This document shows, piece by piece, positions 49,801 to 64,000 of a stretch of 64,000 bases of DNA; positions within the stretch are counted from its first letter, which is position 1, and each line of letters opens with the position of its first letter. Source of the stretch: Maribacter algarum (ex Lu et al. 2025) (nom. illeg.). GTDB lineage: Bacteria; Bacteroidota; Bacteroidia; Flavobacteriales; Flavobacteriaceae. The notes beneath the pieces are model-generated. The model was not told where the DNA came from and did not search any database. It saw only the letters and a list, made by a program, of their open reading frames with translations. A program made the translations under genes and the position numbers. The DNA lies in assembly GCA_947495915.1 (NCBI GenBank), contig CANMAW010000001.1:992001-1056000 (forward strand), given 5' to 3'.

Positions 49801-51758
49801 ATTCCGACGGTATTACCAACGTCAAGATTGTTTGCCGGTGAACCATTGATATTAACAAAACTTCTTACACCACTTCTTTCTAATTCTAAAAATATACGGT
49901 ATCCTGTCGCATTTGGAGCTGGATTCCATCTGATATCACTATTGGCAGGAGTTTCTGTATCACTGGCATGCGGCATGGTAATTTCTGTACACAATACATA
50001 AGAACAGTTAACAGCGTCTCCGGTGATCGTCCAGCCATTATTGTCTATTAAGTTTTGTCGTTGATTTAAAGCATCACAATATTGTAAGTTTGCTGCCCCC
50101 AAGTTAACACTAGAGTTAACTGTTTGACCAGACCAACCGATTAAAATAGCATCATAATTGTCTTGTGATATACCGCTATTAGATAGCATGTTGGTCATAT
50201 TTGTTACATTAGTAATATCCCAACTTTCTAAATTTTGATTAAAAGATGTGGCTGCACTAAACATACCAGACATACTAGTAGCAGCAGAAGTATTCCAACC
50301 CGTTATATCTTGATTAAAAGAACTTGCACGGCTAAACATGTTTTGAAAATTCGTCACGTTGGTGAGGGTCCATAAATTTAAGGGTTGGTTAAAGTTTGAG
50401 GCCCGATCAAACATTGAATTGATATTTTCAACATTAGTGACATTCCAACTATTTAGTGGTTGATTAAAAACTAGTGCCTGTTGAAACATTGTTGACATAT
50501 TGGTAACGTTACTCACATTCCACCCACTTATGTCTTGATTGAAAACATCTGTTTGGGAGAACATACCTTGCATATTGGTAACATTACTTACATTCCACCC
50601 ACTTATATCTTGATTAAAACCAGAGTTGTCTCTAAACATATAACTCATGTTTGTTACGTTACTAACATTCCAGCTATCTAGAGGATGATTATAAACCTGA
50701 TCCCAGTAAAACCCATCAAACATGCTTGACATATTTGTAGCATTACTAACATTCCAAGTATTTAAAGGATGGTTAAATGTTCTATTTCTTTGAAACATTC
50801 CAGAAAAATCTTCAACAGAAGAAACATCCCAACTTGCCAAAGGGTGGTTATAATGGGCATGTCTAAACATATAACTCATATTTGTTACTTTGCTAACGTT
50901 CCAATTGTCAATTGGATGATTAAAATCAGAACCATCAAACATAGAGCTCATATCAGTAACATTACTTACATTCCAATTATTCAATGGGGTGTTAAAATCA
51001 CCGGTAGATTCAAATGTTTGCGACATATCAGTTACGAGGCTAACATTCCAGTTATTTATATTTTGATTAAAGCGTCCGGCACCGTGAAACATTCCTTTCA
51101 TGGTGGTTACGGCGCCAGTGTTCCAATTGTCTAAGGGTTCATTAAATTGATGTGCTCCATAAAAAGTTTCAGACATATCAGTAATTGAACTCGTAATCCA
51201 TAAATCGAGTGGGCGATTAAAAATATCAGCATTGTAGAACATGCCAGAAATATCAGTAATTGTAGAAACATCCCAATCATTTACAATTCCATTAAATGAT
51301 GTTCCTCCACGAAACATGTTTTTTAAAGTGGTTACCTGACTTAAATCGGGAGCCGCAATGGCATCGAAATTTAAGTTCGAACACCCGAAAAAAGCATTTT
51401 CCATAGTTTGCCATTGAAGGTTACCCCACGAAAGTATTTCAATGATTTTTAGTTTATCATTAGCCCTGTCGTCATTAAAGTACATTGACGGAAAAGAACC
51501 GCTTATACTAATGGTATATGTACCTGGGGTTGCATATGTATGTGTAATATTACCTGTTACACCGGTGTCTGTAGAACCGTCGCCCCAATCAACATCATAA
51601 TTGTAGGTGGTGAAGGCGGGATTTGTTGGAATGGTAATTTCATTATTTGCAGAAGAACCTGTTTCTATGTTATTAGTATTCCAACTGGCAATAAATGGTT
51701 GTGAAAATAAGTGGAGACTAAAGGTTAAAAATATTGGGAGCAGGAAGTTTTTTAACAT
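43812..51758 (-). CDS. Giant surface protein: PKD-like, BspA/DUF285 and Fn3-like repeats with type IX (type B) sorting domain
   Basis: A 2648-residue secreted protein. I chose the ATG at 51758 over 51794 because it gives a clean signal peptide (MLKNFLLPIFLTFSLHLFSQ). Order by residue, approximate: PKD-like (25-110, DWGDGST then THTYATPGTYTISI), 16 DUF285 units (145-535), one Fn3-like domain (590-690), a second PKD-like domain (700-780), 21 DUF285 units (820-1345), twelve Fn3-like repeats (1390-2550), then a type-B sorting domain (YGFSPDGDGINEYW, IYNRWGDAVF, LPAGTYFFDI, GFLVIKR). DUF285/BspA repeats are a leucine-rich-repeat relative known from adhesins. Its role is probably adhesion or surface binding. 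Confidence 0.93.
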   Translation of the reverse strand: MLKNFLLPIFLTFSLHLFSQPFIASWNTNNIETGSSANNEITIPTNPAFTTYNYDVDWGDGSTDTGVTGNITHTYATPGTYTISISGSFPSMYFNDDRANDKLKIIEILSWGNLQWQTMENAFFGCSNLNFDAIAAPDLSQVTTLKNMFRGGTSFNGIVNDWDVSTITDISGMFYNADIFNRPLDLWITSSITDMSETFYGAHQFNEPLDNWNTGAVTTMKGMFHGAGRFNQNINNWNVSLVTDMSQTFESTGDFNTPLNNWNVSNVTDMSSMFDGSDFNHPIDNWNVSKVTNMSYMFRHAHYNHPLASWDVSSVEDFSGMFQRNRTFNHPLNTWNVSNATNMSSMFDGFYWDQVYNHPLDSWNVSNVTNMSYMFRDNSGFNQDISGWNVSNVTNMQGMFSQTDVFNQDISGWNVSNVTNMSTMFQQALVFNQPLNSWNVTNVENINSMFDRASNFNQPLNLWTLTNVTNFQNMFSRASSFNQDITGWNTSAATSMSGMFSAATSFNQNLESWDITNVTNMTNMLSNSGISQDNYDAILIGWSGQTVNSSVNLGAANLQYCDALNQRQNLIDNNGWTITGDAVNCSYVLCTEITMPHASDTETPANSDIRWNPAPNATGYRIFLELERSGVRSFVNINGSPANNLDVGNTVGISFTNEFDPGDIVYVTVVPYNAEGPATGCQEINFTVVESWVNSPDAFKLTYDTRILETGTTAANQLKIEANTGYPDYLSYDYSIDWGDGQYDNHVTNDITHTYLNPGIYTVSIIGDFPAPQHYYSNTDAIKLLSIDQWGTQEWRSMNLGFYYCENMEYNATDIPNLSNVTDMSNMFAGCNLFNGNINDWDVSNVTNMGYMFIGANSFNQPLDLWNVSNVTYMSGMFFSCDVFNQPIGNWTTTSVTNTSRMFNGAEVFNQPLNNWDVDQVTDMNQMFANTDTFNQPLDNWDVGQVEDMSEMFEDAIVFDQNIDVWNVSNVTDMSTMFAKAAAFNQPLNTWNLSSVTTTAGMFSSADAFNQPIDNWNVTAVTDMRSMFSNANSFNQNINSWNVTNVTNMSYMFSNASSFNQPLNSWDVNSVVNMSSTFRSASAFNQPLDSWNVSAVATMNNMFEDAEVFNQPINTWNVSSVTQMESMFEDAIVFNQPLNNWNTSVVTNFEAMFKNASAFNEPLSNWNTGEALTMEEMFNGATVFNQNIDPWNVSFVTTMKSMFEDATAYNQTMNSWNVASVQTMSEMFKNATSFNENIDNWNVRGVTTMYQMFSGATDFNQSINSWRVSNVGDMGYMFNEATAYNQPMDQWILGNVSMRSTFYNATALDQYLGDWDISGVNDMRDMLDNTALIRENYDNTLIAWSEQTITSGITLGAEGLPYCDAQEERQSMIDNFGWTFSLDVRDCPIPECTQLASPLNGDTDVPVNTNITWDAALFAQGYRLTVGTTAGGNDVVNNLTITNETSYEFAADFNTGDIVYVTIVPFNDEGDAVGPCTEESFTISNTPATIPDCTTLIEPLNGATDVVVSTDLSWNAISNADGYRLTVGTSTGANDILNAEDVGNVNTYDFTADLPEDSDIFVTIIPYNDEGDATSCTEESFHTEIIPVPPTCTNLTTPLNGATDVPIDTQLSWTAVSNATGYLVVVGTTSGGIEVVNNIDVGNFTTYNIPGDLQEGRLHFVTIIPYNAEGDATGCIEETFTTGDSTSPPSCTSLSAPLDGATAVAPNTNLTWSEISSATGYKLSVGTSSGSSDIYSGDVGDILIHDLAADLPESTVIYVTVTPYNDNGDAISCNEESFTTDGVPICTTLLTPANGATNIAVDTYIEWNASSNTDGYKLTVTASSSTANNITDFDVTAGTTYAFANDFERGETVTVTIIPYNATGDAIGCTSESFTIIPPPVPACTTLATPANGAIDVAVDTSIAWNASAGADGYKITVLASSSTANNITDYDTTATTYNFTNNFEQGETVTVTITPYNDQGDAISCTSESFTIKPVPTCTTLSSPTNGAVDVPVNTNVSWNAIAEATGYKVTVTGSSSNINNLTDFDTTATSYNFTNDFEQGETVTVTITPYNEIGDAIACTSESFTIKPVPSCTNLILPADGAIDVPVDTSIEWAAVAEANGYKLTVSASSSTANNVTDLVLSTGTNYNFANDFEQGETVTITLVPYNEVGDAIGCSSESFTIKSIPLCTNLTQPTDGEIDVAIDTDISWTPIDDANGYRITVTASNSTLNNVTDLDVNAATSYDFPNDFQESEVVTVTVTPYNEVGAAVGCTSESFTIKSVPLCTNLTAPLNDAVVAEVSELTWAAIADADGYKLTISGSNTTTNDVTDFDVSGTSYTFPNDFDQGEVVTVTITPYNEVGDAIGCTSESFTIRPIPPCTTLAAPLNNAIDVSVMTDISWNASLDADGYRISVGTSVGGNDIVNNEDVASLTSYTFAEDLPSETLIYITITPYNTSGDAVGCTSESFETEVIIPTCSQLASPYNGEEDIPLESSISWEEVEKTDGYRLSIGTTPGGTELLNNQDMGTSTSYTPSQEYPFGTEIYVTIIPYNIKGDATSCEAQVFTTLIPEDETEYGFSPDGDGINEYWHIENIHYYPENIVTIYNRWGDAVFTTENYDNSSSVFRGEANLKTKMGAGILPAGTYFFDIQIEGETILRKTKGFLVIKR
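44110..47600 (-). repeat. Twelve tandem Fn3-like repeats in the giant surface protein
   Basis: Each unit is about 95-100 residues and follows CTxLxxPxNGAxDVxVxTxIxW, then GYKLTV, and ends YNExGDAxxCTSESFTI. Units 5-10 are the most alike, suggesting recent duplications. The conserved Cys pair at the start and in the last third could form a disulfide in each unit. Confidence 0.9.
47730..49310 (-). repeat. DUF285/BspA repeat block 2 (21 units)
   Basis: Units of about 25 residues, W-x-V-S-x-V-T-x-M-x-x-M-F-x-x-A-x-x-F-N-Q-x-L-x-x. I counted 21, of which the last few diverge (YNATALDQYLGDWD, then DMRDMLDNT). Confidence 0.9.
50160..51330 (-). repeat. DUF285/BspA repeat block 1 (16 units)
   Basis: Same 25-residue unit as block 2, with 16 copies. 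The recurring core is NVTNMSxMF followed by FNxxLxxW. The block ends with a DNYDAILIGWSGQ cap that recurs after block 2 as ENYDNTLIAWSEQ. Confidence 0.9.
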
Positions 51759-51856
51759 ACGGACTAATTGGTTTAGTACTGTGAAATACAGCATTAGTCC
51801 TTAACGAGAAGTGCATTAGTATATTTTAATAGTTGATTTATTTGTTGTGAAACCTA

Positions 51857-51975: not shown

Positions 51976-53256
51976 TTAATCAATTCTTCTCATTTTTTCT
52001 CTAATTTCATTCAGACATAAATTTCCTAAACTACCCTCATGTGTGTGTTTTATATTTCTTTTTGGAGTAAAAGTACCTGCTTGAATATCTTGCCCCATTT
52101 GTTTATAGGCATCTCTAAAAGGCATTCCGTTTTGAACTAATTCATTTAAGGTATCTACACTAAACAAATAATCATATTTAGGGTCTGATACAATATCTTC
52201 ATTAATGCGAATTTCACGTAGACTAAACGTAAGAATCTCAAGACAGGCTTTCATGTCTTGAATTGCAGGTACAATAATTTCTTTTACCAATTGTAAATCA
52301 CGATGGTAGCCACTGGGTAAATTGTTGATGACCATAGTTAATTGGTTAGGAATAGCCTGAAGCTTGTTACATTTGCCCCTTATGAGTTCGAAAACATCAG
52401 GGTTTTTTTTGTGCGGCATAATGCTTGACCCTGTAGTTAACTCGTCAGGAAACGAAATAAAGTCAAAATTTTGGCTCATATAAAGACAAATATCCATAGC
52501 TAGCTTTGAAAGTGTTGCGGCTATATTGGCCATGCCAAAGGCTGCTGCTTTTTCAACTTTTCCACGTCCCATTTGTGCAGCTACTACGTTGTATTTCATA
52601 GTTTCAAAGCCCATTTCACCAGTGGTAAAACTTCGGTCAATGTTGAACGAACTTCCGTAACCAGCAGCGCTACCTAACGGATTTTGGTCAGCTACTTTGT
52701 AGGCTGCTTCAACAAAATATAAATCGTCAATTAAACTTTCTGCATATGCTGAAAACCAAAGGCCGAATGATGATGGCATTGCAATTTGTAAATGCGTATA
52801 CCCTGGTAATAACACCCGTTTATATTTGTCTGCAAGATTCAAAAGCAAATCAAACAATGTTTTCGTTTGCGTTTTAATTTCAGTTAGTTCATCTTTCAAA
52901 TACAAATGCATTGCGACTAAAACTTGATCGTTTCTTGATCGGGCGGTATGAATTTTTTTACCAGTATCACCTAAAGCTAAGGTTAGCTGAAATTCAATTT
53001 TAGAATGCATATCTTCAAAATTGTCTTCAATGGTAAACGAACCTTCTTCAATTTTTTTAGAGATTTTATCTAGCTCATTCTCAAGAGCATTGGTTTCTTC
53101 CGTCGTAAGCAAACCGATTTTGCCCAACATTTTGGCATGTGCTTTTGAAGCGACAACATCGTATTTTGCCAAATGTAAATCAAGCTCACGATCATTACCC
53201 ACAGTAAAATGATCAATTTTTTTATCGGTACTAAAGCCTTTATCCCAAAGTTTCAT
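51976..53256 (-). CDS. argH: Argininosuccinate lyase
   Basis: A 426-residue enzyme that releases fumarate and arginine in the last step of the pathway. The fumarase/aspartase signature is clear: TGSSIMPHKKNPDVFELI near residue 280, with the catalytic-loop Ser. HTARSRNDQVLVAMHLY near 103 and LLPGYTHLQIAMPSSFGLW near 150 are also diagnostic. Slightly shorter than E. coli ArgH (457). It is the last gene of the operon, separated from argE by 106 bases that contain a small inverted repeat, and followed by a terminator. Confidence 0.96.
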   Translation of the reverse strand: MKLWDKGFSTDKKIDHFTVGNDRELDLHLAKYDVVASKAHAKMLGKIGLLTTEETNALENELDKISKKIEEGSFTIEDNFEDMHSKIEFQLTLALGDTGKKIHTARSRNDQVLVAMHLYLKDELTEIKTQTKTLFDLLLNLADKYKRVLLPGYTHLQIAMPSSFGLWFSAYAESLIDDLYFVEAAYKVADQNPLGSAAGYGSSFNIDRSFTTGEMGFETMKYNVVAAQMGRGKVEKAAAFGMANIAATLSKLAMDICLYMSQNFDFISFPDELTTGSSIMPHKKNPDVFELIRGKCNKLQAIPNQLTMVINNLPSGYHRDLQLVKEIIVPAIQDMKACLEILTFSLREIRINEDIVSDPKYDYLFSVDTLNELVQNGMPFRDAYKQMGQDIQAGTFTPKRNIKHTHEGSLGNLCLNEIREKMRRID

Positions 53257-53362: not shown

Positions 53363-54427
53363 TTAGTGCATGAATCCGTTTAATATTTTAATATATAAGT
53401 CGATGCCTTCTTCAATTTCATGTACGTAAATATACTCATCTGCCGAATGTGATCGTGTACTATCTCCGGGGCCTAATTTTAAAGATTGGCATGTCAATGC
53501 CGCTTGATCTGATAGGGTAGGAGAGCCGTATGTTTTTCTTCCTAAGGCAATACCCGATTGAACCAAAGCGTGGTTTTTGTCAATTTTTGATGAATTTAGT
53601 TTGAGTCCGCGTTCTTGAATTTCACAAGGGGCTTCTGCTTTTAATAAGTCTGCAATTTCTTTATTAGAGTAGGCATCATTGACCCGAACATCGATTACCA
53701 GTTCAACCTGAGATGGTACTACGTTGTGTTGCGTGCCCGCATTTATTTGGGTTACTGTCATTTTTACATCACCTAAAGCCTCTGAGGTCTTTTCGAATTT
53801 GTAGTCTTTGAACCATTCTAAAACTTCAATAGTATTGTAAATGGAATTGTTATCGTTAGGGTGAGCCGCATGAGAAGGGGTTCCTTTTACTACGGCATCA
53901 AATACAACTAAACCCTTTTCAGCAATGGCTAAATCCATCAGGGTAGGTTCACCAACTATAGCCACATCTATATTTGGAAGTTGAGGTAAAAGACCTCTCA
54001 GACTGTTTTCGCCAGCGTTCTCTTCCTCCATAGAAGCGACCATTAAAATATTATGATTAAGATTTTCGGCATTATAAAAATGAGTAAATGTAGCAATTAA
54101 CGAAACCAAACAGCCGCCCGCATCGTTGCTTCCTAATCCATATAACTTTCCATCTTCAATATGTGGGTAAAATGGGTCTCTGGTGTAAGCCTTATTCGGT
54201 TTTACTGTATCATGATGCGAATTTAGAAGCAGAACAGGTTTACTATCATCCCAAAACTTGTTCTTTGCAAAAACGTTGTTGTGAATACGTTCAAATGGAA
54301 TGTCGAATGTTTTAAACCAACCTTCTATGGCATCTGCGGTTTTATCTTCTTCAGATGAAAATGATTGTATTGAAATTAGTTGTTGCAATAAATTTAATGC
54401 CTTATCAGTAAGCTCTTGCTGTGTCAT
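53363..54427 (-). CDS. argE: M20-family N-acyl-ornithine/N-acyl-citrulline deacylase
   Basis: A 354-residue M20 metallopeptidase-like enzyme. I start it at the ATG at 54427, one base after the argB stop; the upstream in-frame codon is a TTG that would overlap argB by 35 bases. Metal-site motifs are LLNSHHDTVKPNKAYTRDPF, GLGSNDAGGCLVSL and MVASMEEENAGENSLRG. In organisms with ArgF', the acyl group is removed after carbamoylation, so the substrate is likely N-acetyl- or N-succinyl-citrulline. Which acyl group it uses cannot be read from the sequence. Confidence 0.88.
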   Translation of the reverse strand: MTQQELTDKALNLLQQLISIQSFSSEEDKTADAIEGWFKTFDIPFERIHNNVFAKNKFWDDSKPVLLLNSHHDTVKPNKAYTRDPFYPHIEDGKLYGLGSNDAGGCLVSLIATFTHFYNAENLNHNILMVASMEEENAGENSLRGLLPQLPNIDVAIVGEPTLMDLAIAEKGLVVFDAVVKGTPSHAAHPNDNNSIYNTIEVLEWFKDYKFEKTSEALGDVKMTVTQINAGTQHNVVPSQVELVIDVRVNDAYSNKEIADLLKAEAPCEIQERGLKLNSSKIDKNHALVQSGIALGRKTYGSPTLSDQAALTCQSLKLGPGDSTRSHSADEYIYVHEIEEGIDLYIKILNGFMH

Positions 54428-54428
54428 T

Positions 54429-55208
54429 TTATAGCGTAATTGTGGTAAATAGTGTTTGATCAAGACTTAACATTGACAAATCTCCGATACATACTTTTGA
54501 AACATTTTTGTGTAAGGCATGAAAGCAATTCTCCATTTTAGGTAACATGCCATCAGCTATAATTCCTTTCTTTAACAGCTCCTGATATTTCTTAGAATCT
54601 ATGTCAGTTACTACTGAATTTTCATTATTGACATCTGTTAATACTCCTTTCTTTTCAAAGCAATAGTATAAGTTAGTTTGATAAATTTGACTCATACCAA
54701 TGGCGATTTCAGATGCAATGGTGTCGGCATTGGTATTTAATAATTGCCCCTTACCATCATGTGTCATAGCACAGAAAACAGGTGTTAAATTTGCCTTTAT
54801 TAAGGCTGCAATCATGTTGCTGTTGACTCGTTCTACATCCCCTGCAAAACCATAGTCGATCTCTTTTACGATGCGTTTATGCGCTTGTATAGCATTACCA
54901 TCAGCACCGCTTAAACCAATGGCATTGCAATTATTTGCCTGTAATTCAGCAACAATGTTCTTATTGGTTAGTCCAGCGTAAACCATGGTAATTACTTCCA
55001 ATGTTTGGGCTTCGGTGATTCGTCTACCACCAATATATTTAGAAGTGATACCCAGCTTTTTTCCTAATTCTGTAGCCAACTTTCCGCCACCATGAACTAA
55101 AATTTTAGGATTGTCAATAGTTGAAAATAGCTGAAGAAATTTCGATAAATCCTCTTTATTTTCAATAACGTTTCCTCCAATTTTTACAACCGATAGTTTT
55201 TGCTTCAT
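54429..55208 (-). CDS. argB: N-acylglutamate kinase
   Basis: A 259-residue amino-acid-kinase-fold enzyme phosphorylating N-acetyl- (or N-succinyl-) glutamate. It opens with VVKIGGNVIENKEDLSKFL, then LVHGGGKLATELGKKLGI, GLSGADGNAI, NTNADTIASEIA and the closing ADGMLPKMENCFHAL, all typical of ArgB. Its start codon overlaps the argF' stop by one base (TAATG), so the two are coupled. No C-terminal regulatory extension is visible. As usual for the family, arginine feedback cannot be judged from sequence alone. Confidence 0.93.
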   Translation of the reverse strand: MKQKLSVVKIGGNVIENKEDLSKFLQLFSTIDNPKILVHGGGKLATELGKKLGITSKYIGGRRITEAQTLEVITMVYAGLTNKNIVAELQANNCNAIGLSGADGNAIQAHKRIVKEIDYGFAGDVERVNSNMIAALIKANLTPVFCAMTHDGKGQLLNTNADTIASEIAIGMSQIYQTNLYYCFEKKGVLTDVNNENSVVTDIDSKKYQELLKKGIIADGMLPKMENCFHALHKNVSKVCIGDLSMLSLDQTLFTTITL

Positions 55209-56146
55209 TATAAATTTTCAAGAATTTTTTTAAGTACGATTTGAGCGGCAAATGTTCTATTATTAGCTTGTTCAATGACTAAAGATTGCTCACTATCTAA
55301 AACAGCATCTTCTACAACTACATTTCTACGCACTGGTAAACAATGCATAAATTTCGCATTTCCGAGCTTTTTCTTGGTCATCATCCAATCGGGATTCTGA
55401 TTTAAAACTTTGCCATAATCAGAATAGCTGCTCCAGTTTTTAACGTAAATAAAATCAGCATTTAAGCAAGCTTTTTCCTGATCGTATTCTATGGTTACGT
55501 CTTTCGTAATTTCCGATTTTAATTCATACCCTTCAGGATGGGTAATAACAAAGTCAGCGTCTTGACGTTGCATCATTTCAACAAAGGAATTGGCTACAGC
55601 GTGGGGTAAGGCTTTAGGGTGTGGGGCCCAAGAAAGAACGACTTTTGGCCTTTTAGCAACATTTTGTTCATTAATAGTAATAGCATCTGCCAGGGCTTGT
55701 AACGGATGCCCAACAGAACTTTCCATATTTACCACGGGAATTGAGGTATGTTTTTTAAAGCCATTTAGTACGATCTCTGCCTCATCTTTTTCTTTGTCTG
55801 TTAAAGATGCAAATGCTCGAATTGCTACAATGTCACAAAATTGAGATACCACTTGTGCTGCTTCTTTAATGTGTTCCGATTTGCCTTGGTTCATTACCAC
55901 TCCCTCTTCAAATTCAAGTTGCCAACCTTCACTGCCAAAATTCATGACCATTACTTCCATACCTAAATTCATGGCAGCTTTTTGGGTACTTAATCGCGTT
56001 CTTAGGCTATTATTAAAAAATAAAAGGCATATGGTTTTACCTTCACCCATAAAATTAAGACTTCTCTGGTTGGCCTTTAGTTTTCGGGCATCTGAAACCC
56101 ATTCTGGTAAATCATCAATAGCTGCTATTGAATCGTAATGCTTCAT
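55208..56146 (-). CDS. argF': ArgF'-type N-acyl-ornithine carbamoyltransferase
   Basis: A 312-residue transcarbamylase. The ATG at 56146 overlaps the proB stop (ATGA), making it a better start than the longer frame. Phosphate-binding FFNNSLRTRLST replaces the STRTR of ordinary ornithine carbamoyltransferase; HPLQALADAITI and FMHCLPVRRNVVV are also present. The overall pattern matches the Bacteroidota N-succinylornithine/N-acetylornithine branch, not anabolic OTC. The residue before the conserved E-H in GKSEHIKEAAQV, which I recall as Pro in the succinyl and Glu in the acetyl enzymes, is Ser here, so specificity is open. Confidence 0.88.
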   Translation of the reverse strand: MKHYDSIAAIDDLPEWVSDARKLKANQRSLNFMGEGKTICLLFFNNSLRTRLSTQKAAMNLGMEVMVMNFGSEGWQLEFEEGVVMNQGKSEHIKEAAQVVSQFCDIVAIRAFASLTDKEKDEAEIVLNGFKKHTSIPVVNMESSVGHPLQALADAITINEQNVAKRPKVVLSWAPHPKALPHAVANSFVEMMQRQDADFVITHPEGYELKSEITKDVTIEYDQEKACLNADFIYVKNWSSYSDYGKVLNQNPDWMMTKKKLGNAKFMHCLPVRRNVVVEDAVLDSEQSLVIEQANNRTFAAQIVLKKILENL

Positions 56147-56910
56147 TGTACTGTTATTTTCGTATGATTGGAAGTCCCATCTAGGGCTTCTGATATAAAA
56201 TTGTCGATTAGTCCGTTTACTATCCAAGTTTCAATTTCTGCCTCTTGTGCTATGGTAGCAGCTTGAATTTTAGAACGCATGCCTCCAGTGCCATGTGATG
56301 ATTTTTTTAAACTGATTTCTTTTTCAAGTGCACTTAGGTTTGAAACGGTATGTATTGTTTCCGGTTTTCCAGCTTCGATAGATGCTTTGGTGCATATTCC
56401 ATTTGTATTCGTTGCGATAATCAGCAAATCCACTTGTAACAATGCTGCTGTTAATGCAGCAAGTTTATCATTGTCTCCAAATTGTATTTCATCCGTGGAA
56501 ACCGTATCATTTTCATTAATTATCGGAATAACATTATTCGCCACCAGAACATTAATCGCACTTTTTATATTTTCTTGAGTGTTTGGTTTTTCGAAATCAG
56601 AATAAGAAAGCAAACATTGGGCAGTAAACAAACCAAGTTCCCTAAAATTTTCTTGAAATATGCGCATTAAATGAGGTTGACCAATAGCTGCAAGTGCTTG
56701 TTTGACATTAATCTCCTCACCATTATGCTCTAATTTTACAAATTGTTTTGCTGCTGCAATGGCGCCAGAACTTACAATTATAAATTCATAATCGTTTTTT
56801 AGTTTTGCTATTTGCCTACCAATATCTTCAATTTTTCCTCTGGAAATTTGATCGGTCTCTTTGGTCAGTGTATTTGAACCAATTTTAAGTAAAATTCTTT
56901 TTTTACTCAT
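56143..56910 (-). CDS. proB: Glutamate 5-kinase, PUA-less short form
   Basis: A 255-residue amino-acid kinase that phosphorylates glutamate for proline synthesis. Start is the ATG at 56910, two bases after the proA stop. Motifs: ILLKIGSNTLTKETDQ, IIVSSGAIAAAKQ, NENDTVSTDEIQFGDNDKLAA, and GTGGMRSKIQAATIAQEA. It lacks the C-terminal PUA domain found in E. coli ProB (367 residues), being a kinase domain only. It is inside the arginine operon and would be controlled with it. Confidence 0.93.
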   Translation of the reverse strand: MSKKRILLKIGSNTLTKETDQISRGKIEDIGRQIAKLKNDYEFIIVSSGAIAAAKQFVKLEHNGEEINVKQALAAIGQPHLMRIFQENFRELGLFTAQCLLSYSDFEKPNTQENIKSAINVLVANNVIPIINENDTVSTDEIQFGDNDKLAALTAALLQVDLLIIATNTNGICTKASIEAGKPETIHTVSNLSALEKEISLKKSSHGTGGMRSKIQAATIAQEAEIETWIVNGLIDNFISEALDGTSNHTKITVQ

Positions 56911-56912
56911 AT

Positions 56913-58109
56913 TTATCTTGTTTGACCGTTGCCCGTTATATACCATTTATTAGTCACCAAATGTGCTAAGCCAATAGGCCCTCTTTGATGTAATTTGTCG
57001 GTGCTAATAGCTAACTCTCCACCCAATCCGAATTGCCCTCCATCAGTAAAACGAGTGGATGCATTGTGGTAGACTGCAGCAGAATCAACGGAGTTCATAA
57101 AAATTTCTGCTTTCTCGGCATTTGCAGTAATAATAGACGCGGAATGACCGCCCCCGAAGGTATTAATTTTTGAAATCGCATCGTCAATACCTTCAGATTG
57201 ACCAATAGCGATTTTGTAATCTAAAAATTCATGGTACCATATATTCTCATCGGTGATTGCTGTGGTTCCCTCTAAACTAGATAAAGCCTGATCGGTGTAG
57301 ATTTCTACATTGCTCTTTTGTAGTTCAAGAATGAGGTGCTGTAAAAATTGATGTTTTCGAACCAAGTCAGAAGCTACCAACACCTTATCTAAGGCATTGC
57401 ACGCCGATATTTTGGTGGTTTTAGCATTAATGATAATGTCTAACGCCATTTGAAGATCAGCTTCGGCGTCAACATACACAAAATTATTACCACGACCACT
57501 AACAATAACCGGACATGTAGCATGTTGTTTCACAAATGCGATTAGTCGTTCACCGCCTCTTGGTACAATAAGATCTAATTTTTGGGTTGGTTTTTCAAGA
57601 AAGGATTGCGTTTCAGATCTATTAAACTGTAAATAGGAAATCCAGTTGGTGTCGCAGTCGTTTTCTTCTAACGATTTACGCCATAAATCGACTAAGAGTA
57701 AATTACTATGCAATGATTCTTTGCCTCCTTTTAACAGGATGTTATTTCCTGATTTGAAAGCAATACCAGCAGCTTCAACGGTTACATCTGGTCGTGATTC
57801 ATAAATGATGAGTATGGTACCAAATGGTGCTGTTTTATTGCTAATATTCATACCATTTTCATGGGTAGTCTGAAAACGTTCAATGCCCAACGGATCTGGT
57901 TCAGCAGCCAATTGCTCTAACGATAAGATCATTCCGTCAATTTTACTTTGATCAACTTTAAGTCGGTCTTGCATTGAAATGTCATCGCCAGAATAATTCT
58001 CTAAATCGATTTTATTCGCTGCTAAAATAGCATCTTGGCTTTTAGAAATATGAATTGCCATTGTTTTTAAAACAGCGTTTCGAACAGTTATGTCTAGTTG
58101 TTTTTTCAA
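56913..58109 (-). CDS. proA: Gamma-glutamyl phosphate reductase
   Basis: A 398-residue aldehyde-dehydrogenase-fold enzyme reducing gamma-glutamyl phosphate to the semialdehyde. Signatures include TAPFGTILIIYESRPDVTVE, GNNILLKGGKESLHSN, the catalytic-Cys region KISACNALDKVLVAS, and FTDGGQFGLGGELAIST near the C terminus. The start codon is TTG at 58109, overlapping the argD stop (TTGA), which indicates translational coupling; the next ATG would cut the N-terminal helix. It precedes proB by two bases. Confidence 0.94.
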   Translation of the reverse strand: MKKQLDITVRNAVLKTMAIHISKSQDAILAANKIDLENYSGDDISMQDRLKVDQSKIDGMILSLEQLAAEPDPLGIERFQTTHENGMNISNKTAPFGTILIIYESRPDVTVEAAGIAFKSGNNILLKGGKESLHSNLLLVDLWRKSLEENDCDTNWISYLQFNRSETQSFLEKPTQKLDLIVPRGGERLIAFVKQHATCPVIVSGRGNNFVYVDAEADLQMALDIIINAKTTKISACNALDKVLVASDLVRKHQFLQHLILELQKSNVEIYTDQALSSLEGTTAITDENIWYHEFLDYKIAIGQSEGIDDAISKINTFGGGHSASIITANAEKAEIFMNSVDSAAVYHNASTRFTDGGQFGLGGELAISTDKLHQRGPIGLAHLVTNKWYITGNGQTR

Positions 58110-59233
58110 TTTAATTCTGCTTTTAAGGCGTTGAAAAATGTATCAATATGCGCTTTGGTAATATTTAGTGCGGGCAATATTCGAAGTACCTTTTTATCTT
58201 TTGCGCCACCGGTAAAAAGATGCTGGTTGAAGATTAATTTTTTTCGAAGTTCAGCGACTTCAAAATCAAACTCTAACCCGAGCATTAGTCCTCGTCCTTT
58301 GGTTCGTTTTACTTGCGGAATCTCAGCTGTTTTTTCATTAAAATACACTCCCAATTGGGCAGCGTTCTCAATTAAATTATCCTGTTCTAATACTTCTAAA
58401 ACCGCAAGTGTTGCTGCGCATGCCAAGTGATTTCCTCCAAAAGTAGTTCCTAAAAGTCCGTAAGAGGCTTTGATTTTCTCATGAATCAGAATTCCTCCCA
58501 CAGGAAAACCATTGCCCATTCCTTTCGCAATACTTATAATATCAGGTCGAATGTTATGATGTTGAAATCCGAAAAATTTACCACTTCTTCCGAATCCGGA
58601 CTGTACTTCATCTGCAATGAGAAGTACATCATTTTCAGCAGCTAATGCAGCAATCTCTTGAAAAAATGCTGAGGTGGGTTCATCTAAACCGCCAACACCT
58701 TGAATCGGTTCTAAAATAACAGCGCAAATATCACCTTTAGTAATTTCCTGTTTAAAGGCATCGATATCATTTAAGGGTAAGATCGATACCTTTTGCTGCT
58801 TATTTAATGGGGCATTAATTTTTTCGTTATCTGTAGCTGCAACTGCCGCAGAAGTTCTTCCGTGAAAACCATTTTTAAAGGCAATCACTCTAGTTTTTGA
58901 AGTATGAAAAGATGCTAATTTAAGTGCATTTTCGTTGGCTTCGGCACCAGAATTACATAAAAACAGATTGTAATCTTCACAACCAGAAAGTTGCCCTAGT
59001 TTAGTAGCAAGTTCCACCTGTAGTGGATTTTGAACGGCATTACTATAAAAACCTATTTTATCTAATTGTTCTTTTAAGCGCTTCACATAGTGCGGGTGCG
59101 AATGACCAATCGAAATCACTGCGTGACCTCCATAGTAATCTAAATATTCTTGTCCTTTATCATCAGTAACGACAATGCCTTTGGCTTGTACTGGTGTTAC
59201 ATTGTAAAGTGGATAAACGTCAAATAAATTCAT
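58106..59233 (-). CDS. argD: N-acylornithine aminotransferase
   Basis: A 375-residue class III PLP-dependent aminotransferase. Motifs: GHAVISIGHSHPHYVKRL, LFLCNSGAEANENALKLA, LLIADEVQSGFGRSGK with the Asp that contacts the PLP nitrogen, and the Schiff-base Lys in ISIAKGMGNGFPVG. It converts N-acyl-glutamate semialdehyde to N-acyl-ornithine. It sits between proC and proA in the operon. As with related enzymes, activity on ornithine itself is possible. Confidence 0.93.
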   Translation of the reverse strand: MNLFDVYPLYNVTPVQAKGIVVTDDKGQEYLDYYGGHAVISIGHSHPHYVKRLKEQLDKIGFYSNAVQNPLQVELATKLGQLSGCEDYNLFLCNSGAEANENALKLASFHTSKTRVIAFKNGFHGRTSAAVAATDNEKINAPLNKQQKVSILPLNDIDAFKQEITKGDICAVILEPIQGVGGLDEPTSAFFQEIAALAAENDVLLIADEVQSGFGRSGKFFGFQHHNIRPDIISIAKGMGNGFPVGGILIHEKIKASYGLLGTTFGGNHLACAATLAVLEVLEQDNLIENAAQLGVYFNEKTAEIPQVKRTKGRGLMLGLEFDFEVAELRKKLIFNQHLFTGGAKDKKVLRILPALNITKAHIDTFFNALKAELN

Positions 59234-59267: not shown

Positions 59268-60068
59268 CTATAACTGTCTTTCTTTTATGCTACTAATCTT
59301 TTCAAAGGAGGCAACAATACCTTGAATTAATGAGGAACTCAAGCCTTGATGCTCCATTTCATTTAAACCTTGAATGGTACAGCCTTGAGGCGTAGTCACT
59401 TTATCAATTTCTTCTTCTGGGTGACTGCTTGATTCTATCAATAATGCAGCTGCGCCGTCGCAGGTGTGCATTGCTAATTCTTGTGCTTCTTTGGCATCAA
59501 ACCCTAGTTGTATAGCACCTTGAGTAGTAGCACGTATTAAACGCATCCAAAAGGCTATACCGCTAGCACAAATTACTGTAGCAGCTTGCATTTGTTCTTC
59601 CGGAATTTCTAAGGAATGCCCCATACGATTGAATATGGCTTTTGCTAAATCAATACGGCTTTTTCCTTTTTCATTGGCACAAATACAGGTCATTGATTTT
59701 CCAACTGAAATAGCCGTATTTGGCATGCTTCTAATGATGTCATGTTTGGAACCTATAATAGCCTCGATTTTAGAAATGCTAAATCCGGTTATGGTCGAAA
59801 TGATCACATGTTTTTTAGTTAAAATATCTTTGATGTCTTCTAAAATGGCTTCAAACTGACTTGGCTGTACTGCAAAAATTAAAATATTTGATTTTTTAAC
59901 CGCCTCTCTATTATCAGAAGTGATGATAACATTGCCATACTTTTCAAAATTGTAAATCTGAGTCGGATTTCTTTTTGTCAGATAAAGATGGTTTGATCCT
60001 TTGGAGTTTAAAATTCCTTTAGCGATAGATAATCCTAAATTTCCAGCTCCTATAATGGCTATTTTCAT
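59268..60068 (-). CDS. proC: Pyrroline-5-carboxylate reductase
   Basis: A 266-residue NAD(P)H enzyme that makes proline in the last step. The Rossmann start is IAIIGAGNLGLSIAKGIL; later motifs are ILIFAVQPSQFEAILEDI, IRSMPNTAISVGKSMT, ASGIAFWMRLIRATTQGAI and TPQGCTIQGLNEMEHQGLSS (the conserved C-terminal signature). Together with proA and proB in the same operon it completes the glutamate-to-proline route. Confidence 0.93.
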   Translation of the reverse strand: MKIAIIGAGNLGLSIAKGILNSKGSNHLYLTKRNPTQIYNFEKYGNVIITSDNREAVKKSNILIFAVQPSQFEAILEDIKDILTKKHVIISTITGFSISKIEAIIGSKHDIIRSMPNTAISVGKSMTCICANEKGKSRIDLAKAIFNRMGHSLEIPEEQMQAATVICASGIAFWMRLIRATTQGAIQLGFDAKEAQELAMHTCDGAAALLIESSSHPEEEIDKVTTPQGCTIQGLNEMEHQGLSSSLIQGIVASFEKISSIKERQL

Positions 60069-60138: not shown

Positions 60139-61113
60139 CTAAAAAACTCCTGCTTTAAGATTTAGTCCAGTTTTTTCATCGAAACCGAACATGAGATTCA
60201 TATTCTGAACTGCTTGTCCTGATGCACCTTTTAACAAATTGTCAATAGCCGATGTAATCAGCAAGGTATTATTGTGTTTATGCAAATGAATATGGCATTG
60301 ATTCGTATTAACCACTTGTTTTAAATGAATTGGCTCATTAGAAATTTGTGTGAAAGCTGCATCTTTATAAAACGTCTTAAACATTGCAAAAGCCTCATCA
60401 ACCGAACCATCGAACGGTGTATAGGCTGTGGCGAAGATGCCACGTGTAAAATTTCCTCTATTCGGTAGAAAGAACAATTCACCCGTATCACCTTGTAAAG
60501 ACTGCAGGCTCTCTTTGATTTCTCCTAAATGTTGATGCGTGAACGGTTTATACCAGCTCACATTATTATTTCGCCAACTGAAATGAGTAGTTGCCGACGG
60601 ACTAACCCCAGCACCAGTGCTTCCTGTAACGGCATTGATATGTATCTGAGCGTGTAACAAATTATGCTTTGCCAATGGTAGCAGCGCTAATTGAATAGCA
60701 GTGGCAAAACAACCGGGGTTTGCGATATATTTCGCTTGCTGAATTTCTTCTTTTTTAAGTTCAGGTAATCCGTAGATAAATTGTCTTCCATCCAACTCCG
60801 CATCAGCTTCTAATCTGAAGTCGTTACTCAAGTCAATAATTTTGGTGTTTTCAGAAAATTGATATTCGTTAAGAAATTTGGTTGAATTACCATGACCCAA
60901 ACATAAAAAAACAACTTCAACATTCTGATTTACCACGCCCGTGAATTGTAAATCGGTGGAGCCAATTAGATCAGGATGTGCTGTGGTTACTTTTTTTCCT
61001 GCTCGCGTTGTACTAAATACAAAATCAATTTCTACTTTTTCGTGATTCAACAAAATTCGAATCAGTTCGCCACCAGTATACCCAGAGCCTCCAATAATAC
61101 CTGCTTTAATCAT
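60139..61113 (-). CDS. argC: N-acyl-gamma-glutamyl-phosphate reductase
   Basis: A 324-residue semialdehyde-dehydrogenase-family enzyme. It starts with KAGIIGGSGYTGGELIRILL. The catalytic Cys is in IANPGCFATAIQLALLP, and the general-acid region is NRGNFTRGIFATAYTP. It reduces N-acylglutamyl phosphate using NADPH. Its start overlaps the argG stop by eight bases; a gap of 70 bases separates it from proC. Confidence 0.94.
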   Translation of the reverse strand: MIKAGIIGGSGYTGGELIRILLNHEKVEIDFVFSTTRAGKKVTTAHPDLIGSTDLQFTGVVNQNVEVVFLCLGHGNSTKFLNEYQFSENTKIIDLSNDFRLEADAELDGRQFIYGLPELKKEEIQQAKYIANPGCFATAIQLALLPLAKHNLLHAQIHINAVTGSTGAGVSPSATTHFSWRNNNVSWYKPFTHQHLGEIKESLQSLQGDTGELFFLPNRGNFTRGIFATAYTPFDGSVDEAFAMFKTFYKDAAFTQISNEPIHLKQVVNTNQCHIHLHKHNNTLLITSAIDNLLKGASGQAVQNMNLMFGFDEKTGLNLKAGVF

Positions 61114-62290
61114 GATTGACGTGATTATAAATTTTACCAGAATTTGAAAGTATTTTTATAAAACCTTTCGCGTCATCGGCGGTCCAGCCCTTGTTTACTT
61201 CGCCATAACTACCGAAAGCATCAGTCATTAAATCGTGTTCAGATGTTATACCGTTTAATCGAAATTGGAATGGATAAAGGCTTATAAATACATCGCCAGA
61301 AACTTTCTTTTGTGTATCAGTAAGAAAGGTTTCAATGTTGCGCATAACAGGGTCTAAATAATTGCCTTCATGCAATAACATACCGTAAAAATTACCCTGT
61401 TGTTCTTTTTGAAACTGTTGCCATTTCGACAAGGTGTGTTTTTCTAATAAATGATGTGCTTTGATAATAATTAAAGCAGCAGCGGCTTCAAAACCTACTC
61501 TACCTTTGGTGCCTATAATGGTGTCACCAACATGAATATCTCTACCGATGGCATATTTAGAAGCTAAGTTCTCTAACTTTTCAATATTTGCTACGGGATT
61601 ATTCTTTTCTCCATTTATGGCGACTAACTCTCCTTTTTCAAAAGTAAGCTTAACATCGGAAGGCTCTTTTTCTTGTAACTGACTTGGGTAGGCGCTGTCT
61701 GGTAAGGGTTTTTCAGAGGTTAAGGTTTCTTCACCACCAACAGAAGTTCCCCAAAGGCCTCTATTGATCGAGTATTTTGCCTTTTCCCAAGGGTAATCCA
61801 CCCCATTTTCTTTTAAATACTCAATCTCTGCCTCTCGAGCCAATTTATTGTCTCTGATCGGAGTAATAATTTCAATTTCTGGCGCAATGATTTGAAAGAT
61901 CATATCAAATCGTACTTGATCATTTCCGGCACCAGTACTACCGTGAGCAATATATTTTGCGCCCACCTTTTTAGCATAATTTACGATTTCAATAGCCTGA
62001 ACGATACGCTCAGCACTCACAGAAAGCGGGTAGGTGTTGTTTTTCAGAACATTGCCGAAAATTAAGTACTTCACCACTTTATCATAGAAGGTTTGTACGG
62101 CGTCAATGGAAGTATATGATGTAGCACCAAGGCTTATCGATTTCTCTTCAATCGTTTTGATTTCTTCTTTTGTAAAGCCACCAGTATTTACACTTACTGC
62201 GTGAACTTCGAATCCTTTTTCTTTTGATAAATACTTTGCGCAGTAACTGGTATCTAGTCCTCCACTATATGCTAAAACTAATTTGCTCAT
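61106..62290 (-). CDS. argG: Argininosuccinate synthase
   Basis: A 394-residue ATP-dependent synthase joining citrulline and aspartate. Signatures: KLVLAYSGGLDTSYCAKYL at the N terminus (PP-loop), AHGSTGAGNDQVRFD near 120, and SINRGLWGTSVGGEE near 180. It overlaps the upstream GNAT stop by an ATGA, and its stop overlaps the argC start by eight bases, so the first genes are tightly coupled. Citrulline comes from the argE product. Confidence 0.96.
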   Translation of the reverse strand: MSKLVLAYSGGLDTSYCAKYLSKEKGFEVHAVSVNTGGFTKEEIKTIEEKSISLGATSYTSIDAVQTFYDKVVKYLIFGNVLKNNTYPLSVSAERIVQAIEIVNYAKKVGAKYIAHGSTGAGNDQVRFDMIFQIIAPEIEIITPIRDNKLAREAEIEYLKENGVDYPWEKAKYSINRGLWGTSVGGEETLTSEKPLPDSAYPSQLQEKEPSDVKLTFEKGELVAINGEKNNPVANIEKLENLASKYAIGRDIHVGDTIIGTKGRVGFEAAAALIIIKAHHLLEKHTLSKWQQFQKEQQGNFYGMLLHEGNYLDPVMRNIETFLTDTQKKVSGDVFISLYPFQFRLNGITSEHDLMTDAFGSYGEVNKGWTADDAKGFIKILSNSGKIYNHVNHD

Positions 62291-62901
62291 TTCTTATTTT
62301 TTTTGAGAAATAATTGTTCTTTAATACTTTTTAATCTTTTAAAAGCTTTGCCATTTAATTTCTTATCCTTAGTGGTTTGGGTGGCAGGGTCATACAGCAT
62401 TCCGGTACATAAACACATCTTTTGATCGGTACGAGTAAGTACATCAAAATTTTTGCAGGTTTGGCAGCCTTTCCAGAATTCAGGATCATCGGTTAGCTCA
62501 GAAAAAGTAACCGGTTTATAACCTAATTCATAATTTATCTTCATGACAGGAAGACCCGTGGTTATTCCGAAAATTTTAGCACCAGGAAATTTTTCTTGAG
62601 ATAATTCAAAAACCTTTTGCTTAATACTCTTTGCCAACCCTTTACCCCTGTAATTAGGGTGTACTATTAAACCAGAATTAGCGACATATTTTTCATGCCC
62701 CCAAATTTCGATATAACAGAAGCCGGCAAAAGTTTCACCATCTAATGCGATTACGGCGTTTCCGTTTTCAAGTTTTTTCTGAATGTATTCTGGAGTTCGC
62801 TTGGCGATACCAGTTCCTCTAACCGTTGCAGAATCTGCAATGGTGTCGCAAATAACTTGAGCGTACTTAAAATGAGAGGTGTTAGCAACAATGATTTTCA
62901 T
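62287..62901 (-). CDS. GNAT acyltransferase with C-terminal Cys cluster, candidate N-acylglutamate synthase
   Basis: A 204-residue protein. Residues 1-150 form a GNAT domain with the acetyl-CoA loop LIVHPNYRGKGLAKSIKQ. The tail has four Cys as C-x2-C-x13-C-x-C (GCQTCKN then KMCLCTGM), then a basic Lys-rich C terminus. No argA or argJ is otherwise in this operon, and a first-step acyltransferase is expected. Being the first gene of the arginine operon and coupled to argG by an ATGA, it is the best candidate to make N-acetyl- or N-succinylglutamate. The Cys cluster may bind a metal. Catalytic activity is inferred from context only. Confidence 0.7.
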   Translation of the reverse strand: MKIIVANTSHFKYAQVICDTIADSATVRGTGIAKRTPEYIQKKLENGNAVIALDGETFAGFCYIEIWGHEKYVANSGLIVHPNYRGKGLAKSIKQKVFELSQEKFPGAKIFGITTGLPVMKINYELGYKPVTFSELTDDPEFWKGCQTCKNFDVLTRTDQKMCLCTGMLYDPATQTTKDKKLNGKAFKRLKSIKEQLFLKKNKK

Positions 62902-62947
62902 TGCTATTGTCGTTTAATGGATTAAATAAAATGTGAATTGCTTGTGC

Positions 62948-62969
62948 GGAACTGGACTCACCTAGTTCC
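62948..62969 (-). promoter_or_regulatory. Hairpin between the arginine leader ORF and the first operon gene
   Basis: On the minus strand GGAACT-A-GG pairs with CCAGTTCC around a five-base loop, giving eight base pairs with one bulged A. It starts 19 bases after the leader stop. No U-run follows immediately, so if it terminates transcription it is not a canonical terminator; T-rich sequence begins about 18 bases later. Confidence 0.5.
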
Positions 62970-62987
62970 ATAGAATGTGTAGTACCC

Positions 62988-63071
62988 TTACGGGCGACGG
63001 CGGCGGGGAGCGAACGTACGTACATCAGCTGTGATGCTAGTAGTAAATAAAATGTTGTTCTGTGCCTTCAT
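62988..63071 (-). CDS. Arginine-rich leader peptide, putative attenuator of the arginine operon
   Basis: A 27-residue ORF on the minus strand, start ATG at 63071 and TAA at 62988-62990, 86 bases before the first operon gene (GNAT). It begins MKAQNNILFTTS and ends DVRTFAPRRRRP, so five of its last ten residues are Arg, four in a row. The four are CGC CGC CGT CGC, a C-rich block that stands out in this AT-rich DNA. The layout (short leader, run of the regulated amino acid near its end, just before the matching biosynthetic operon) is that of attenuation leader peptides known for his, thr and trp operons. A hairpin CATCA-CAGC-TGATG lies within the ORF upstream of the Arg codons. Confidence 0.75.
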   Translation of the reverse strand: MKAQNNILFTTSITADVRTFAPRRRRP

Positions 63072-63086
63072 TACGGTGTAAATGTA

Positions 63087-63114
63087 CAAATTATCTTTAG
63101 TCCACCTAATTCAA
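63087..63114 (-). promoter_or_regulatory. Predicted promoter of the arginine operon
   Basis: On the minus strand TTG (63112-63114), an 18-base spacer and TAATTTG (63087-63093) resemble the Bacteroidota TTG...TAnnTTTG promoter, one base short in the -7 box. Transcription would begin only about 10 bases before the leader ATG, which fits a leader-peptide attenuator. Confidence 0.5.
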
Positions 63115-63135
63115 AAGATATTTTTTACAAAAACT

Positions 63136-64000
63136 TCATGTTTTGTTACGATATGCAATTAATTCATAAACTAAGAATGAAATAACGGCCAGGTATTCTA
63201 AAGTAAGAAGCCATAAATTTTCTTTAAAATCAGCTTGAGCATAGGCGTAATAACTTAAAACAATAGCCGAAGACCAAATGAATGCGTAGCGATATTTTGT
63301 AAATGCGGTAAGTACTACTAGAAAAATAATATACCATGGGTGTACGGTGGCAGATATTAAGTAGTACAGGGTGAGCACCCATAGCATAGATGTTATTAAA
63401 ACGGATAGCTTTTCATTTTTTCTTAGAAATGTGAATAGTAGTACCGCTATAATTGTAATGATTGGGGTGATTTTACCGTAGAATTTTATTAATTCCCAGG
63501 GTTTTGCATCAAACTGAATGGCTGTATGTTTTACAGCATTGTATAAGCCAGCATTGAATTCAAAATTCGAAAACCAGAGTCCGATGGTTTGAGAGTAATT
63601 ATTTATGAAATCAGCGGAATAAAAAGGAGCAAAAAGTAATAGTGATGTGCCAGCGATTATAAGGTAAAAAAACACAGTTTTCTTAAACTTAAAATGTTTT
63701 AAGAAAAGCGGTAGAAATAAAAGTGGTACCAATTTAACTGAAATAGAACAGGCATATACCACTGCAGCCCATTGCCATTTGTTCACAGAAAGAAGGTATA
63801 GGGCCCATACGAAAAAGAGAAGCATGACTCCTTCAAAATGAAGGTTTCCGGTTAATTCTATGATAACTAACGGATTTAGAAAATACCAAAAAATAAGGTG
63901 CGGTGATTGGTTGATGTTTTTTAGCAGCTTTCTTCCAAAGAATAAAATACCAATGTCTGCAAAAACGATTATTGTTCGCATTACGACGACTGATCCTAAA
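63136..64000 (-). CDS. Integral-membrane glycosyltransferase (GT87/DUF2029-like), 5' truncated at the window edge
   Basis: At least 288 residues with eight or more hydrophobic helices; the frame continues upstream through LGSVVV to the edge, so the start lies outside. Motifs include FADIGILFFG, FWYFLNPLVIIELTGNLHFEG, and KLVPLLFLPLFLK, followed by LFAPFYSADF and ATVHPWYIIFLVVL. This matches polyprenol-phosphate-mannose-dependent alpha-mannosyltransferase-like membrane proteins (GT-C fold). The donor and acceptor are unknown. It is transcribed towards the arginine operon, from which it is separated by 234 bases. Confidence 0.7.
   Translation of the reverse strand, partial: LGSVVVMRTIIVFADIGILFFGRKLLKNINQSPHLIFWYFLNPLVIIELTGNLHFEGVMLLFFVWALYLLSVNKWQWAAVVYACSISVKLVPLLFLPLFLKHFKFKKTVFFYLIIAGTSLLLFAPFYSADFINNYSQTIGLWFSNFEFNAGLYNAVKHTAIQFDAKPWELIKFYGKITPIITIIAVLLFTFLRKNEKLSVLITSMLWVLTLYYLISATVHPWYIIFLVVLTAFTKYRYAFIWSSAIVLSYYAYAQADFKENLWLLTLEYLAVISFLVYELIAYRNKT

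Follow-up and report, generated by a model that had tools for sequence, protein, structure and literature searches.

The locus described here raises the question of how arginine synthesis is controlled in bacteria in which the usual regulator is not found. In other bacteria, arg operons are normally under the control of ArgR/AhrC, whereas a search for ArgR (PF02863) was negative in all 39 genomes examined here, including the genome under study (31 of the 39 are at least 90% complete); the same search was positive in 8 of 14 named controls. The open-access papers searched offered no answer to this question. The window, the whole stretch of 64,000 nucleotides of Maribacter algarum DNA that was analyzed, carries an arginine/proline operon preceded by a short, Arg-rich open reading frame (ORF). 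Because ArgR was found in none of the 39 genomes, this leader may be the arginine control of these bacteria in place of ArgR.

The leader and its promoter element are as follows:

63071 to 62988, minus strand: Arg leader ORF, 27 codons plus TAA, encoding MKAQNNILFTTSITADVRTFAPRRRRP and ending in RRRRP and the stop codon (sequence, relatives)
62991 to 63005, minus strand: Arg run and final Pro codon, CGC CGC CGT CGC CCG (sequence)
63079 to 63086, minus strand: -7 box TACATTTA of a Bacteroidota-type promoter (sequence)

The sequence agrees with the first-pass annotation, which had described a 27-codon ORF with four tandem Arg codons followed by Pro and a stop codon; the ORF lies on the minus strand, and another Arg codon is located five residues ahead of the Arg run. 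The promoter-like sequence reported about 15 bases before the ORF corresponds to the -7 box, which starts 15 nt and ends 7 nt ahead of the leader ATG and was named against TAnnTTTG, which we take to be the Bacteroidota -7 consensus. A promoter type with -7 and -33 elements is described for Bacteroides (PMC7366714). In a deduplicated set of 90 distinct leaders with an ATG 20–32 codons before the stop codon, 67 have a -7-type box that ends 7 or 8 nt ahead of the ATG, and 10 have no such box. Given this spacing, the leader is expected to begin almost at the 5' end of the RNA; in the window, transcription is expected to start near 63075, only a few nucleotides ahead of the ORF. Since Arg accounts for 3.04% of codons, four Arg codons in a row within 24 places would arise by chance with a p of about 2e-5; as we read the sequences, the comparative evidence presented below is much stronger against a chance origin than this value.

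The gap between the leader ORF and the first operon gene is 86 nt (62902–62987), exactly the distance given in the first-pass annotation. However, the gene behind this gap, which had been taken as the first arg gene, encodes a GNAT acetyltransferase, and argG is second. All eleven genes that had been placed behind the leader were called by profile matches or domains, in the order GNAT, argG, argC, proC, argD, proA, proB, argF-type, argB, argE-type, and argH:

62287 to 62901, minus strand: first gene, GNAT acetyltransferase (PF00583)
61106 to 62290, minus strand: argG (TIGR00032, above cut-off)
60139 to 61113, minus strand: argC (TIGR01850, above cut-off)
59268 to 60068, minus strand: proC (TIGR00112, above cut-off)
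58106 to 59233, minus strand: argD-type transaminase (best match TIGR00707, under its cut-off)
56913 to 58109, minus strand: proA (TIGR00407, above cut-off)
56143 to 56946, minus strand: proB (TIGR01027, above cut-off)
55208 to 56227, minus strand: acetylornithine-type carbamoyltransferase, argF' (PF02729/PF00185; NF003384 slightly under cut-off)
54429 to 55208, minus strand: argB (TIGR00761, above cut-off)
53363 to 54463, minus strand: argE/dapE-type deacylase (PF01546, Pfam domain only)
51976 to 53256, minus strand: argH (lyase domain PF00206 and place in the operon; Pfam domain only)

The GNAT acetyltransferase is possibly an N-acetylglutamate synthase. Directly after argH, a gene for a 2660-residue repeat protein follows on the same strand (43812–51794).

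Between the Arg run and the first gene lies an RNA part that was absent from the first-pass annotation, consisting of one hairpin spanning the stop codon (h1) and a second (h2) located 18 nt after that codon:

62984 to 62995, minus strand: h1, stop-codon hairpin GCCC-GUAA-GGGU (alignment, fold)
62948 to 62969, minus strand: h2, hairpin GGAACU-A-GG-UGAGU-CC-AGUUCC (covariation, fold)
62902 to 62947, minus strand: G-poor linker from h2 to the first gene, a candidate Rho loading stretch (base composition)

To compare this arrangement across relatives, 98 genomes were searched for the GNAT gene; 58 had a match, and the stretch upstream of the gene was read in 50 of them, 39 of which belong to the family of the window (f1). 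Hairpin h2 with the loop GGUGNGUCC lies upstream of GNAT in 38 of the 39 f1 loci and in none of the 11 loci from other families. At least three Arg codons within 45 nt, in the best frame before h2, are present in 35 of these 38 loci, and the other 3 have two; h1 over the stop codon is readable in the alignment of the same loci. The remaining f1 locus, L050 (genome G046), retains an Arg-rich frame and a hairpin resembling h1, while its second hairpin has a different loop (by eye).

A DNA pattern for h1 and h2 that makes no reference to genes, although it fixes Arg at codon -2, Pro, and the stop codon, was also scanned over the named genomes and yielded at least 117 loci. Among the 117 matches listed, the first gene match downstream is GNAT in 114, always on the same strand and no more than 200 nt away, and ArgG in 1; the other two end 118 and 151 nt past the motif, before any downstream gene match. 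The pattern loci and the GNAT loci share at least 6 genomes, and the two sets are not independent. The pattern matches listed include Maribacter, Zobellia, Arenibacter, Muricauda/Allomuricauda, Winogradskyella, Tenacibaculum, and Cellulophaga, and the leader of the window looks closest to the Maribacter-type leaders among them. With a covariance model of h1 and h2, 261 of 397 genomes of the family match at E up to 1 and 241 at E up to 0.001. In a phylum sample, 20 of 395 genomes match, 16 of them from the family of the window; the four others (E 0.002–0.007) were rejected as being at chance level for 395 genomes, their alignments being partial or weak. Within the family, the model has no match in the 19 listed genomes of genus g151 in the phylum sample, and no leader was seen at three g151 loci (L229, L230, and L236), though GNAT and argG are present there. 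The first-pass annotation had suggested comparing 5' regions across Flavobacteriaceae; the short ORF, the Arg run, and the reading frame are conserved in most of those examined. Loss of the Arg codons in close relatives would have spoken against the idea; the loci examined in the genus of the window show no such loss.

Pairing within the two hairpins was analyzed in an alignment of 89 matches fitted to the covariance model (A3) and in a MAFFT alignment of 22 sequences (A2). In A3, all six outer pairs of h2 are changed on both sides in some sequences, the most affected pair in 39 of the 89. One inner pair is invariant, and the other changes from G-C to A-U in two sequences (L264 and L286). The loop reads UGNGU in 86 of 89 sequences, with C or G as the last base in the other 3. 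Of the 89 sequences, 80 have G-U and 9 have G-C as the outer pair of h1, and 2 have A-U in place of one of its C-G pairs. Overall, 98.7% of the cells are paired across h1 and h2, and the covariation score is 0.332 versus 0.152 for shuffled alignments (reached in 0 of 500 shuffles) and at most 0.087 for slid controls. A2 gives the same picture for h2, while h1 never varies in it. The spacer from GGGT to TAGGTG measures 17–21 nt in the 117 listed loci, where the pattern allowed 10–28. The single-sequence fold of h1 and h2 in the window is unremarkable (z -1.33). Collectively, across the sequences compared, the ORF, its frame, the Arg codons, h1, h2, their spacing, and the genomic context are conserved.

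The covariance models of Rfam 15, including T-box, riboswitches, and Flavo-1, assigned h1 and h2 to no known family: the 261-nt stretch of the window gave two matches at E up to 10, and 12 related loci gave two matches at E up to 1, both in L233, all of them far below the cut-off. We also considered h2 as an element common to other amino-acid leaders and rejected this, as it is absent by eye from 11 his leaders. A scan of the genome of the window with the h2 pattern gave one site with one mismatch and eight sites with three mismatches, versus six for the reversed pattern; two of the eight were inspected and do not look leader-like. Similarly, an antiterminator formed by pairing of the Arg codons (CGCC) with the h2 loop (GGUG) appeared in 3 of 10 single-sequence folds (L105, L109, and L117) and was not relied on, since the G-U pair changes to G-C in none of the 89 loops.

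The Arg codons themselves are held in a single frame. Among the 117 pattern loci listed, Arg occurs at codon -3 in 109 and at codon -4 in 79, while in the other two frames, Arg occurs at codons -2 to -6 in only 0–4 of 80 loci. In the 90 distinct leaders, codon -4 is CGT in 41, CGC in 39, and another codon in 10; in the 80 with Arg, the third base varies while the first two are fixed. Counted from codon -3 toward the start, the 117 loci listed have 351 Arg codons, of which 328 are CGY (CGT or CGC), 8 CGA, and 7 AGA. The long ORFs of the window have CGT or CGC at 181 of 520 Arg codons, and AGA is their commonest Arg codon. Among 35 tRNA matches in the genome of the window, tRNA-Arg occurs with the anticodons ACG, TCG, and TCT, one each. 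CGT and CGC are both decoded by the tRNA-Arg with anticodon ACG, and the leader would therefore poll one isoacceptor. Dinucleotide shuffles of the same CG-rich stretches have 3.17 Arg codons in the best frame versus 4.18 observed, and the largest of 200 shuffled means is 3.58; because the shuffled stretches are Arg-rich as well, a high number of Arg codons is by itself only moderate evidence. Constraint on the N-terminal part of the leader is weak, with 118, 97, and 152 differences at codon positions 1, 2, and 3 in 31 pairs, and the leader peptides resemble each other only over about their last 10 residues.

Leaders without an ATG adjacent to the promoter appear to have a conserved, often non-ATG start. 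Among 50 listed loci of this kind, ATG, GTG, or TTG is present at codon -30 or -31 in 34, and at 12 other positions between -24 and -37, a start codon is present in just 0–4. ATG is absent within 45 codons of the stop codon in 19 of the 117 listed loci, 11 of which have GTG or TTG at -30/-31; the other 8 lack a start codon there as well. Furthermore, another Arg-rich ORF (such as MKNLKNKIRCSVPGLPARNRRRRF) lies upstream of the leader in 31 of the 50 listed loci without a promoter-adjacent ATG and in 1 of the 67 listed loci with one. In these tandem leaders, exemplified by L106, L108, L122, L183, and L214, the stop codon of the upstream ORF lies 132–212 nt before that of the downstream leader, which often has ATG, GTG, or TTG as its start, 30–31 codons ahead of its own stop codon. 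Folds of 18 tandem stretches, inspected by eye, showed no stable hairpin immediately ahead of a run of T.

Arg-rich ORFs also precede this operon outside the family of the window. In a phylum-wide argG search, 25 of the 30 loci fetched were examined. All five loci of family f38 (L234, L235, L237, L238, and L239) have Arg-rich short ORFs about 85–105 nt before GNAT-argG; these leaders, such as MQKSLAHRIERPTTRRIPRRR, use CGG codons and are unrelated in sequence to h1/h2. A hairpin lies shortly past the leader stop codon in L235, L237, and L239 (by eye). Looser Arg-rich short ORFs precede the operon in L233, L240, and L242, whereas in L232, no Arg-rich leader was seen, though GNAT and argG are present. 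Two loci of family f2 (L053 and L054) were also read by eye as Arg-rich leaders. The ORFs in f38 and the other loci indicate that Arg leaders of this operon are more widespread than h1/h2.

Based on these comparisons, the Arg leader together with h1 and h2 probably forms a ribosome-mediated arginine sensor that acts in cis. We infer from the sequences translation of the leader, stalling on it, the direction of the response, and the output step as follows. Transcription would start a few nucleotides before the ATG, and the first ribosome would translate the 27-codon leader to its RRRRP end and the stop codon. When tRNA-Arg(ACG) is charged, the ribosome would reach the stop codon and leave, h1 would fold over the stop codon, and h2 would be free; with ample arginine, transcription of the operon would thus be cut short in the G-poor linker or early in the first gene. 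When charged tRNA-Arg is short, the ribosome would stall on the CGY run and cover h1, and the operon would be transcribed. The first-pass annotation had proposed Arg-tRNA-dependent attenuation of the operon. The conservation of the Arg leader in position and frame, with silent changes in its Arg codons, and the negative ArgR search favor this proposal, but its classical form is not supported, as no terminator was found and the hairpin pair is of a different kind. In its full extent, the reading that we put forward tentatively is that an ORF with almost no 5' leader monitors the charging state of tRNA-Arg(ACG) and that a ribosome-gated hairpin pair with a recognized UGNGU loop leads to early termination without an intrinsic terminator. 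Such leaders would take the place of ArgR across much of the Flavobacteriaceae, in many cases with two in series, and analogous leaders would exist elsewhere in Bacteroidota.

Several other explanations share part of this evidence. SpeFL and the fungal arginine attenuator peptide are arrest peptides of the arginine/ornithine type, and the leader could likewise encode an arginine-sensing arrest peptide, whose nascent chain VRPFAPRRRRP would bind arginine or ornithine in the tunnel or stall at the Pro-stop, so that the codons would matter little. Many leaders do have in common a loose C-terminal pattern, VR-x-F...RRP (by eye), and Pro followed by the stop codon is frequent, although in the 117 listed loci it is imposed by the search pattern. 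For a peptide sensor, however, the bias toward CGY would be superfluous; moreover, the N-termini differ freely, and in two loci (L259 and L021), h1 persists with a different sequence while the frame continues past the usual Pro-stop (by eye). We therefore regard an arrest peptide as rather unlikely. Alternatively, h1 and h2 might act at the RNA level only, riboswitch-like or bound by a protein, with the ORF being incidental. While h2 is indeed better conserved than the peptide, and its loop and inner pairs are nearly invariant, an incidental ORF is difficult to reconcile with Arg codons that stay in one frame and change mostly silently, with start codons at conserved places, and with the Arg-rich ORFs of other sequence before GNAT-argG in all five f38 loci; this possibility appears very remote.

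The logic of the proposed leader is the same as that of the his leader in the same genus, and a classical attenuator of the trp/his type with a weak, unusual, or hidden intrinsic terminator would account for it as well. In the genome of the window, the his operon leader (L067, 1213–1308) encodes MRNTNTHHHLLTGYQAR and combines a His run with a strong terminator hairpin before hisG. Leader and terminator are visible in all 11 loci of the genus that are in a readable position (14 fetched), which makes the his leader a classical-looking attenuator in Bacteroidota. For the arg leader, at least five consecutive T residues follow h2 within 14 nt in 8 of the 89 members of A3, a point in favor of this explanation, but in none of the loci of the genus of the window, and h2 was rejected as a terminator on these counts. 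The terminator scan of 62880–63140 likewise found no intrinsic terminator, whereas the same scan recovered the his terminator of the same genome. We consider a classical attenuator unlikely. Finally, control could be exerted on translation, if the start codon of the first gene lay in a hairpin (GCAAUG...CAUUGUUGC) that an upstream event opens, with polar effects on the operon. The GNAT start codon does lie in a small hairpin in the window (62883–62906) and in many single-leader loci, with kinship ignored, and native start regions fold at -5.84 versus -5.14 for recombinants (sd 0.13, best mean -5.50; 136 distinct regions, kinship ignored). In contrast, the hairpin is absent in the Algibacter-type loci L108, L145, and L158, and the leader stop codon is 86 nt from the start of the first gene. 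Thus, the start-codon hairpin is suggestive only, and translational control through it seems quite improbable.

The reading of the leader as an arginine sensor does not depend on how termination is brought about. Our first choice for the output, made with reserve, is that Rho terminates transcription in the G-poor linker, with the ribosome on the Arg run acting as the gate. The genome of the window has a Rho gene (PF07497 match), and the linkers, about 48 nt long, contain 6% G and 18% C (n = 108), a composition that would suit Rho. C outnumbers G in 102 of the 108 linkers; among 218 control spacers taken from these loci it does so in 108, and among 14 spacers of the window in 10. As the 108 linkers are homologous, this bias counts as one feature. 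The main alternative to Rho, which we find more doubtful, is that the h2 loop is read by a factor or by the ribosome.

Among known systems, the his leader of the same genus is the nearest at hand: in both leaders, a short ORF in which codons for the regulated residue form a run precedes the cognate operon. However, the his leader has a clear intrinsic terminator, whereas the arg leader has h1 and h2, and no terminator was found for it. For Flavobacterium psychrophilum, a member of the same family, one sentence describes leader peptides before amino-acid operons, the same general idea, without naming arginine there; the single mention of arginine in the main text available concerns cyanophycin (PMC9723704). 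Judging from titles and the beginnings of abstracts, no Arg leader of an arginine biosynthetic operon was recognizable in the open-access papers searched.

In Salmonella, the speF leader orf34/speFL senses arginine through consecutive Arg codons, and Rho acts on the leader (PMC6386406). It resembles the arg leader in having consecutive Arg codons in a leader ORF; in contrast, its target is ornithine decarboxylase, it has two consecutive Arg codons, its RNA structure is different, and it is proteobacterial (PMC6386406). In Staphylococcus aureus, rbfL senses arginine through leader-ORF Arg codons tied to one tRNA-Arg (PMC13009471), a feature that the arg leader appears to share. Unlike the arg leader, rbfL uses AGA/AGG codons and overlaps the signal of the next gene, and stalling on it blocks the ribosome-binding site of a regulator gene (PMC13009471). 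As far as the available parts of these two reports extend, neither orf34 nor rbfL governs arginine synthesis, and neither is described with hairpins like h1 and h2. The ArgR/AhrC systems of other bacteria have the same target genes as the leader described here, but ArgR is found in 0 of the 39 relatives. If our reading is correct, the ribosome itself would measure the arginine supply in place of ArgR in much of the Flavobacteriaceae.
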